Assembly: GCA_016841185.1 (NCBI GenBank)
Contig: JAENZQ010000002.1
Span: forward strand, 62,001-126,000
Length of the DNA: 64,000 nt
From: Anaerovorax odorimutans
GTDB taxonomy: Bacteria > Bacillota > Clostridia > Peptostreptococcales > JAAYPU01
Direction of reading: 5' to 3'
Part shown: positions 9,074 to 64,000 of the stretch, piece by piece
How the letters are laid out: each line of letters opens with the position of its first letter
How positions within the stretch are numbered: the stretch's first letter is position 1
Program-made: the position numbers and the translations under genes
Notes under the pieces: generated by a model
Told to the model about the DNA's origin: nothing
The model's input: the letters and a program-made list of their open reading frames with translations, nothing else
Database searches by the model: none

Positions 9074-9171
9074 GCTCTTATCTTTCAGGCTTATACCTGC
9101 TGGAATTGGCACATTGCTTAATAGCTGTTGCCGGGTTTCATAGGGCCAGTCCCTCCACCTCTCTGGATAAG
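9074..9171 (-). ncRNA. SAM-I (S-box) riboswitch aptamer
   Basis: minus strand CTTATCCAGAGAGGTGGAGGGACTGGCCCTATGAAACCCGGCAAC...GATAAGAG, with closing P1 and a downstream terminator. Confidence 0.95.
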
Positions 9172-9315
9172 AAGATTCTTCTCATATTATTTAATTACAT
9201 GAATTTTAACCTATATTCATTTTCATGTCAAGCTATTTATCACTGAAAATGAAAGTCAATTGAAAAATTACAATTGATAATTCACAGCAGATATTTATCC
9301 ATCGGCTTTATTGAA

Positions 9316-45445: not shown

Positions 45446-45572
45446 ACATCCCACCTCTTCCTTTTGATAAACGGAGCTATTATGATATTTAAATGTAAAC
45501 AAAACAGCTTGTCATATCAAAATATTCCATTTATATTATATATGACTATAGCATAAATGCCAGCTAAAAAAA

Positions 45573-45608
45573 GGTAGAAATTCTTATCTGCGTGCAAGAA
45601 CTTCTACC
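45573..45608. repeat. GGTAGAAA-type hairpin repeat
   Basis: GGTAGAAATTCTTATCTGCGTGCAAGAACTTCTACC. Confidence 0.75.
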
Positions 45609-45742
45609 CATTATTTTTTCTATTATTTATTATCTTTTATCTGTAACCTCTCAAGATCACCGTGCTCTGCCGGCTATGACAAGATAGAGGTAATCTTAAA
45701 GACCGCAGGGGCTATCTCAATCTCTTCCTGTCATGAATAGCT

Positions 45743-56394: not shown

Positions 56395-56557
56395 AGATAA
56401 GAGATAAGAGATAATAAATAAGGGATAACAGTTTAGGTAGAAATTATTACCAAAGAAAATAATTTCTGTCCTTCCCTAACCTCTAACCTTAACCTCTAAC
56501 TTACTCCATACTCCGCTTCCATGTCATCGCGAGGAGCTTTAGCGACGAAACGATCTT
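56395..56557. repeat. Composite intergenic repeat, full module set (copy B)
   Basis: GATAAGAGATAAGAGATAATAAATAAGGGATAACAG / GGTAGAAATTATT hairpin / CTAACCTCTAACCTTAACCTCTAAC / ACTCCATACTCCGC / ATGTCATCGCGAGGAGC. Confidence 0.8.
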
Positions 56558-62276: not shown

Positions 62277-62489
62277 AGCAGATTATGGAGTATAGATTAA
62301 GTCAGAGGTTAGAGGCAGAAATAAGATAATTGATAAAGGATAATAGATAACAGTTATGGTCAGAAACTATGACAAAGTCATAGTTTCTGCCATTATTTAT
62401 ATTATTTATAATGATATTTTGTGAAACAAAATTGTCATTAACTATTATTTTTTATCTGTTATCTTTTATCTTTTCCTATACTTCTGGCC
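62277..62489. repeat. Composite intergenic repeat, copy 1 beside ntpD
   Basis: about 200 bp nearly identical to 63187-63434. Confidence 0.92.
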
Positions 62490-63101
62490 CTATTTTAGAT
62501 TTTTGACGCGTTTGAGACGAAAAAAATCCTCTCTTTCCTTTTCCTCAAGAATCTCTTCCATATATTTAACCTGTTCCTCGTATTTGGGAATCTGAATTTT
62601 TTCCAGAGCATTGGCTCTCTTTTGAGTTTTTTTAATTTCAATAGCCAGCTTATAAACAGAGTTCTCGATCTCTGCGATTTCATATATCAGGTATTTGACT
62701 TCCCTGAATTTTATAAAAGCAAGGTCCACTGCCGGATTAGTACGATAAAAACCATATTGAGCCTTTAGATCGGTTTCTTCATATTTCACTGTGGGAATTT
62801 CAACACCCATAACACTTCTGGTTAATATCCTGAAATCCTCACGGGTAGGTATGGATAAGGCTATTTCCCGTAATTCATGAACCCCCATACTGACATTTGC
62901 CACTTGCAAGGCTTCAAAAGCTTCCTTAAAAGTATCCGCCATTCTCTTTTGAATGTCTTTTACTCTTTCCATCAGGTCCATCATTTCTCGTATCAATACA
63001 TTCCTTTTTTTATCTAATAATTCAAATCCGCTTCTGGAAAATTCCAGAAGGCTTTTTGCCTTAATGAGGTTTGCTTTGGTAGGTGCTATATTAATATCCA
63101 A
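62490..63101 (-). CDS. ntpD: V-type ATP synthase subunit D
   Basis: 'INIAPTKANLIKAKSLLEFSRSGFELLDKKRNVLIREMM', 'RRTNALEK'-like 'KKTQKRANALEKIQIPKYEEQVKYMEEILEEKEREDFFRLKRVK'. Confidence 0.95.
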   Translation of the reverse strand: MDINIAPTKANLIKAKSLLEFSRSGFELLDKKRNVLIREMMDLMERVKDIQKRMADTFKEAFEALQVANVSMGVHELREIALSIPTREDFRILTRSVMGVEIPTVKYEETDLKAQYGFYRTNPAVDLAFIKFREVKYLIYEIAEIENSVYKLAIEIKKTQKRANALEKIQIPKYEEQVKYMEEILEEKEREDFFRLKRVKNLK

Positions 63102-63152
63102 GTCTTCCCCTCCAGTTCAAGTAAAAAGTAAAAACAGATTTCCAGGCTGTTT

Positions 63153-63434
63153 GAAATCGCCGCGCATTCGCTCGCGATGACATAAAAGCAGAGTATGGAT
63201 TATGGAGTATAAAGTATAGAATAAGTTAGGGGTTAGAGGCAGAAATAAGATAATAGATAAAGGATAATAAATAACAGTTGTGGTCAGAAACTATGACAAA
63301 GTTATAGTTTCTACCATTTTTTATATTCTTTATAATGGTATTTTGTGAAACAAAATTGTTATTAACTATTATTTTTTATCTGTTATCTTTTATCTTTCTA
63401 TCCTTCTGCCCCTCTATCCTTCTGCCCCATTTTA
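63153..63434. repeat. Composite intergenic repeat, copy 2 between ntpB and ntpD
   Basis: ATGTCATCGCGA palindrome (63153-63182) plus about 200 bp nearly identical to 62277-62489. Confidence 0.92.
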
Positions 63435-63444
63435 ATCTTAACCG

Positions 63445-64000
63445 TTATGCTTCTTCCTTGTAGTATTTGTCCAGAATTTCAGGGTCTATACGTTCTAATT
63501 CATCTTTGGGCAGGAGGCTCAATATCTCCCATGCCAGATCCAAGGTCTCCTCAATGCTTCTGTTGTCATCGAAAGATTGCCTGATAAATTTTTCTTCAAA
63601 AACACGGCCAAACTTCATATATTGATTATCCAACTCGGATAAATCATCTTCTCCTATGATCTGTGCCAGTGCCCGAATATCCTGAACTTTGGAATAAGAG
63701 GCAAATACCTGATTGGCTACATCCGGATGATCTTCTCGGGTAAAGCCTTCACCAATACCATCTTTCATCAGCCTTGATAATGAAGGCAATATGCTGATGG
63801 GGGGATAAATATTCTGCTGAAAAAGTTCTCTGCTCAGTACAATCTGTCCTTCGGTAATATATCCGGTCAAATCCGGTACCGGGTGGGTAATATCATCATT
63901 GGGCATGGTGAGAATAGGCAGAAAGGTAATGGATCCTCCTGATTGTTTCATCATGCCTGCTCTTTCATAAATGGAAGCCAGATCAGAATATAAGTAGCCC
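63445..64000 (-). CDS. ntpB: V-type ATP synthase subunit B, C-terminal part (gene runs off the window)
   Basis: '[47 protein letters not shown]'; frame stays open to 64000 ([15 protein letters not shown] upstream of MMKQ). Confidence 0.95.

Follow-up and report, generated by a model that had tools for sequence, protein, structure and literature searches.

The cyanobacterial SDR elements, reportedly described by Elhai et al. (2008, Genome Res 18:1484), are said to be very small, hairpin-forming dispersed repeats that occur together with heptameric STRR repeats in intergenic DNA. MITEs are likewise short and non-coding, with terminal inverted repeats and many copies. REPINs are dispersed, intergenic, inverted doublets of palindromic units, with singlets as likely remnants, and show compensatory changes and a clover-like fold of the single DNA strand (Bertels and Rainey 2011, PMC3116915). 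Tandem 7-mers of the TAACTGA type are intergenic and multi-copy, and are direct repeats of one heptamer without paired hairpins (MacGregor 2015, PMC4679880). The c-subunit gene in the F-ATPase operon of Clostridium cellulolyticum has a processing site with a stem-loop on either side (PMC4423207).

Here we describe a repeat element found in the V-ATPase operon of Anaerovorax odorimutans, at one end of a 64,000-nucleotide stretch of DNA referred to below as the window. As in REPINs, it consists of dispersed intergenic doublets with occasional singlets, has matched changes in its hairpins and could adopt a clover-like single-stranded fold; unlike REPINs (PMC3116915), its stems vary widely, the conserved part is a foot, GATAANAGTTNNGG, joined to long complementary heptad tails, it does not lie beside a RAYT gene and most copies are without a GTAG tag. 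With MITEs it shares shortness, the lack of coding capacity, terminal inverted repeats and a high copy number, although the intervals examined yielded neither an autonomous partner nor a transposase, and a target-site duplication was not definable. Like SDR and STRR it is a very small dispersed hairpin repeat tied to intergenic tandem heptamers; in so far as later papers describe those repeats, it differs from an SDR within one continuous heptamer array, an arrangement not found here, in that the heptads of its two sides are inverted, flank the hairpins and form the element ends, and in that its host belongs to a Clostridia family. Whereas TAACTGA repeats (PMC4679880) are direct, the element has degenerate heptads, inverted arms and two hairpins. 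It resembles the Clostridium stem-loops of selective RNA processing (PMC4423207) in being intercistronic, stable, free of a U-tract and located in an ATPase operon, but it is a dispersed repeat, and whereas the Clostridium processing sites were mapped, the element is known from sequence. In the reading preferred below, the element would be REPIN-like miniature non-coding DNA with variable-stem hairpins.

Results

A preliminary description of the window had noted near-identical repeats at 62277-62489 (copy 1) and 63187-63434 (copy 2). A repeat search of the window bore this out, giving a direct repeat of 193 nt with 92% identity between 62281-62473 and 63205-63397, at a spacing of 924 nt, and gapped BLAST extended the copy 1 match to 62277-62489. 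Both copies, read here on the plus strand, lie among minus-strand genes: copy 2 occupies the gap between ntpB (V/A-ATPase subunit B, its 3' part at 63445-63999), which is upstream of it in the operon sense, and ntpD (V/A-ATPase subunit D, 62490-63101, Pfam ATP-synt_D), and copy 1 follows 3' of the ntpD stop. The placements given earlier were correct, in that copy 1 starts at the ntpD stop (the gene ends at 62490) and copy 2 ends 10 nt before the ntpB stop codon (63445-63447), and we agree that recombination between the two copies would remove ntpD. A third copy, 90% identical, was found 4.2 kb outside the window, in the ntpI-ntpK gap of the V-ATPase operon (positions 130222-130428 of contig C22 of the same genome, G000). 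The operon on the minus strand therefore reads H, C, I, copy 3, K, F, E, A, B, copy 2, D, copy 1, followed by a MoxR-like AAA ATPase and a VWA protein; its genes were identified through Pfam (ATP-synt_D, ATP-synt_ab/VA_C, V_ATPase_I and ATP-synt_C), and those around the repeats are probably cotranscribed. As the three copies differ in many substitutions, whole-heptad indels and their outer flanks, and all lie within one 233-kb contig, they are unlikely to result from a collapse or duplication during assembly. The genomes analysed are drafts, and two contigs of G000, C22 at its right end (C22:233157-233249) and C58 at its left end, stop inside family copies, which indicates that the assembler broke at such repeats. 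The three operon copies are 90-92% identical to one another and much closer to each other than to any other family copy, which suggests local gene conversion or local spread.

Within copy 1 a left array of GATAANA-type heptads (62325-62352, plus strand, 7-nt period) ends in the foot ACAGTTATGG and is followed by hairpin 1 (62359-62391, plus strand; stem CAGAAACTATGAC / GTCATAGTTTCTG, loop AAA), by hairpin 2 (62416-62432, plus strand; ATTTTGT-GAA-ACAAAAT) and by a right heptad array (62443-62474, minus strand) that is the inverted partner of the left one. Copy 2 has the same plan, with a left array at 63249-63276 (plus strand, 7-nt period), hairpin 1 at 63286-63312 (plus strand), with a single G-T pair in place of a G-C pair of copy 1, hairpin 2 at 63340-63356 (plus strand), placed by the fold and by a covariance model of the family core (R1), and a right array at 63367-63398 (minus strand, 7-nt period). 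The same model places the core of copy 1 at 62345-62450 (86.2 bits) and that of copy 2 at 63269-63374 (77.9 bits), both on the plus strand. Elsewhere in the window a solo family unit (56396-56475, plus strand) comprises heptads, the foot GATAACAGTTTAGG and a differing hairpin stem, GAAATTATT / AATAATTTC; it is flanked by minus-strand genes, a 165-aa ORF and a UTP-glucose-1-phosphate uridylyltransferase-like gene. At 45572-45650 a hairpin, GGTAGAA...TTCTACC, followed by TTATCT heptads is probably a degraded family unit. Dispersed repeats of a different type (TTCGCTCGCGATGACA / TTCGCTGCGATGACA) occur at about 63160-63182 of the window and at about 9190-9215 of another stretch (L031); they adjoin copies 2 and 3 as well as other family members, for example in stretch L006. 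The window also contains a SAM riboswitch (9075-9173, minus strand; RF00162, 94 bits).

Across the family each unit is made up, in this order, of (GATAANA)n, AGTTNNGG and a hairpin whose loop measures 3-8 nt. The foot, GTTNNGG, is conserved, and the hairpin is near-perfect and variable in sequence between copies (stems include ACTATGAC, GATTTTGT, AGTTTTGC and AAATTTAGC, among others). Within the stretches fetched, a hairpin of at least eight Watson-Crick pairs comes directly after 28 of the 46 feet from G000 and 52 of the 68 from a related genome, Clostridia bacterium Soudan_22 (G001), against 2.6 and 3.6 respectively when the downstream sequence was shuffled and 3-4% at random places. In 39 distinct hairpins 287 of 312 stem cells are Watson-Crick pairs, compared with a mean of 120 when the 3' arms were redealt, a covariation that is partly a selection effect, as the hairpins were picked for pairing, and to which the fairer foot-anchored control is a partial answer. 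Near-misses in the stems comprise seven G-T and four A-C, and this near equality does not suggest that either strand is retained as an RNA. Singlet units occur, yet neighbouring feet within 45-160 nt of each other converge in 44 of 47 cases and span 77-127 nt, the fixed short distance between inverted palindromic units that defines REPINs; a conserved REP palindrome with a GTAG or CGTC tag was not found in the units.

The full element is therefore an inverted doublet, in which a closing heptad stem and two hairpins allow a clover-like single-strand fold. The preliminary description had called it a large structured repeat between V-ATPase genes, and indeed it folds far beyond shuffles on both strands: as RNA of the operon strand at -43.4 kcal/mol (z = -8.8) and as DNA at z of about -8.6 on either strand. 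The closing arms, AGATAANAGTT / AACTNTTATCT, are paired in 83.6% of cells and form terminal inverted repeats of the MITE kind. Compensatory change in this closing stem was rejected: of the 18 copies aligned, 15 leave the variable heptad base without a partner, and overall pairing is not above that of shuffles, so the closing stem is kept by sequence and not by pairing. No Rfam 15 family exceeded its gathering threshold in the repeats, the best sub-threshold hits being chance matches to plastid or miRNA families. Integron attC sites carry an R-box/L-box core sequence, and an attC-like site was rejected since this core is absent.

The tails are A-rich on the left flank and T-rich on the right, and they show a 7-nt period, with identities at a lag of 7 of 0.49 (G000) and 0.68-0.69 (G001) against around 0.2-0.4 at other lags that are not multiples of seven. 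Indels come as whole heptads: copy 2 has, at about 63190-63215, 14 nt or two heptads beyond copy 1, and 21 nt separate two elements on contig C30 of G000. These differences are the expected outcome of tail slippage. The two C30 elements (stretch L034, 9161-10012) have identical cores and follow tandem TusA-like paralogues (82-90 aa); the orthologous gaps in G001, of 78 and 90 nt, have no element, one of them containing heptads without a hairpin.

A search with the repeat of copies 1 and 2 gave 48 matches in its own 3.56-Mb genome and, in a sample of 40 genomes, 41 in G001, 26 in G002 and no more than five, weak and partial, in any of the others. Strong copies are confined to these three genomes, which are the three that the sample includes from their taxonomic family. 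When 198 genomes of the order were searched with covariance model R1, three matched, each of them from this taxonomic family; the search was filtered, and its per-genome counts are lower bounds. Genome-wide, the foot motif GATAANAGTTNNGG occurs 42 times in G000, 192 times in G001 and 28 times in G002 (5, 3 and 1 for the reversed control), and at control level in the other 37 sampled genomes. The repeat family thus numbers from tens to about 190 copies per genome in one small bacterial lineage, with blocks of 84-93% identity at unrelated genomic places. A wider taxonomic home was rejected, as a pattern search through some 85,000 species genomes, a set that may leave out the window's own genome, matched Soudan_22 only. 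Carriage of the element by phages or viruses was rejected, two pattern scans of viral contigs having given no match.

The ntpB-ntpD gap measures 343 nt in G000 and 338 nt in G001. In G002 it is 27 nt long and in eight other genomes of the order 7-44 nt, and none of these nine carries the element there. Similarly, the ntpI-ntpK gap is 491 nt in G000 and 310 nt in G001 against 59 nt in G002. Since the gaps of relatives are short, the long ones are derived and limited to two genera. The remaining operon gaps in G000 and G001 range from -17 to 28 nt, and the elements thus occupy the sole roomy gaps of the operon. In G001, too, each of these three gaps contains members of the family, its full element between ntpB and ntpD facing the opposite way; its ntpI-ntpK gap also contains one GTAGGG-type palindrome. 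Orthology of the G001 and G000 insertions was rejected, as their similarity is not above the family background (rank 26-42 against 50 family neighbourhoods). A shared position with unrelated sequence is compatible with insertion on separate occasions, or with a single old insertion followed by turnover.

Gene context was assessed in stretches chosen for holding elements and with genes taken from simple ORF calls, which bounds the reading of the following counts: units lie inside an ORF in 2 of 29 cases in G000 and 2 of 75 in G001; their orientation to codirectional neighbours is divided 11:10 in G000 and 23:25 in G001; convergent gaps are preferred over divergent ones (25:10 against a background of 60:64, p = 0.02); and full doublets that lie between codirectional genes share one orientation in G000 (10/10, about seven of them independent) and are split 8:5 in G001.

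Discussion

We propose, with a probability of roughly 70%, that the repeats belong to a family of short, non-coding elements interspersed in the genomes of one lineage, and that they are selfish or mobile DNA which settled in the operon. Such an element would multiply within the genome as DNA, its folded single strand being copied or inserted, and would be moved in trans by some enzyme. The hairpin arms may stay matched through copying from arm to arm or through a mobilising machinery that reads their shape, while the heptad tails would change by slippage. The gaps between ntpI and ntpK, between ntpB and ntpD and after ntpD would have been entered because they alone were free of translational coupling, and the three operon copies may then have been homogenised, or have spread locally, through recombination or gene conversion. 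A mobilising enzyme or autonomous version was not found in the intervals examined; these were two of four candidate intervals, and both held ordinary host genes (a UvrB-like ORF and a band-7-like ORF). Element-free orthologous gaps were seen, and the intergenic DNA of relatives is unalignable at the base level, so that no target-site duplication is definable. Also counting against spread as a DNA element are the elements of G001 in the same three V-ATPase gaps, as an operon role would also predict, and the uniform facing of the full doublets between codirectional genes in G000, which G001 does not share.

It had been suggested in the preliminary description that the repeats form an RNA-processing or stability element that sets subunit stoichiometry. 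In this explanation the double hairpin in the polycistronic mRNA blocks 3' exonucleases or guides cleavage, which we consider unlikely, and H-C-I, K-F-E-A-B and D are separated so that transcript levels follow the stoichiometry of the subunits, which seems equally doubtful. The stable operon-strand fold without a U-tract would suit such a function, as would the bracketing by copies 3 and 2 of K-F-E-A-B, which includes the multi-copy subunits K, A and B, the recurrence in the three gaps of G001 and the precedent of the F-ATPase operon of Clostridium cellulolyticum (PMC4423207). However, the element adjoins unrelated genes throughout the genome without orientation bias, the operon offers no roomy gaps besides the three that are occupied, G-U pairs are few and scarcely commoner than A-C, and the comparison of the locus between related genomes spoke against it, the ntpB-ntpD junctions of G002 and the eight order genomes being element-free. 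Random orientation and the near equality of G-U and A-C near-misses argue for spread at the DNA level rather than for a selected RNA. The repeat is not specific to the V-ATPase; a later side effect on mRNA processing or stoichiometry is plausible by analogy with Clostridium. A separate candidate, an intrinsic terminator of the operon, was rejected: terminator-like matches lie on the plus strand only, antisense to the operon, and the stable fold has no U-tract, so there is no intrinsic terminator in the operon sense. A combined explanation, which we would not favour at present, is that small palindromic DNA, mobile without a RAYT, is recognised by its foot and hairpin shape rather than by hairpin sequence, and may have been re-used as paired RNA insulators around genes of high stoichiometry in the V-ATPase operon; the stems would then diverge freely in matched pairs and the complementary heptad tails would grow by slippage.

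Another possibility is that there is no mobile element, and that neutral intergenic heptad satellites grow by slippage, while template switching in quasi-palindromes creates and perfects the hairpins and recombination makes the copies. The strong 7-nt periodicity with whole-heptad indels, the near-perfect arms without strand preference and the near-identical neighbours (the three ntp and the two C30 copies), suggestive of local conversion or duplication, would all fit, but the GTTNNGG foot, the convergent doublets at a fixed 77-127 nt and the 84-93% identical blocks at unrelated places are difficult to explain unless a defined unit is copied, which makes this explanation distinctly improbable. 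Membership of the REPIN/REP elements moved by a RAYT (TnpA-REP, a Y1 transposase) is in our view very unlikely. Dispersed intergenic inverted doublets of palindromic units, together with singlets, are what it would predict, and Y1 genes are present (seven in G000, six in G001 and one in G002). Nevertheless, none of 13 Y1 loci inspected in these three genomes has a unit at the gene ends, and RAYT/REP membership was rejected on this ground; many of the loci bear other end repeats instead (of the GGGACGGTTCTTTTTGACA type or a GTAGGG-type palindrome), the closest unit lies 1.3 kb from a Y1 gene (L134), most units have feet other than GTAG (e.g. GGATGA, GGTTGA) and an unconserved stem sequence, and Y1 genes are also common in element-free members of the order. 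The GGGACGG...-type repeats and inverse ...CCGTCCC-type repeats that flank Y1 genes at five loci (L123, L125, L129, L132 and L135) are probably the RAYT-associated repeats of this lineage. At two G001 loci (L133 on contig C109 and L134 on C101), shorter Y1 genes of about 166 aa are flanked by GTAGGG...-like palindromic hairpins.

Returning to the interpretation as interspersed mobile or selfish DNA, any effect on V-ATPase mRNA would be secondary, as unrelated gene neighbours, random orientation and element-free ntpB-ntpD gaps in relatives argue. If correct, this interpretation would add to the bacterial miniature elements a family of hairpin doublets in which the shape of the hairpin and not its sequence is kept, with no linked transposase. 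It would also provide a concrete test case for how a repeat copies itself, and for the question of whether RNA function or DNA templating lies behind matched changes in the arms of a hairpin. It would further show how large structured inserts, three of them in one lineage, can enter a core energy operon whose counterparts in relatives manage without them.
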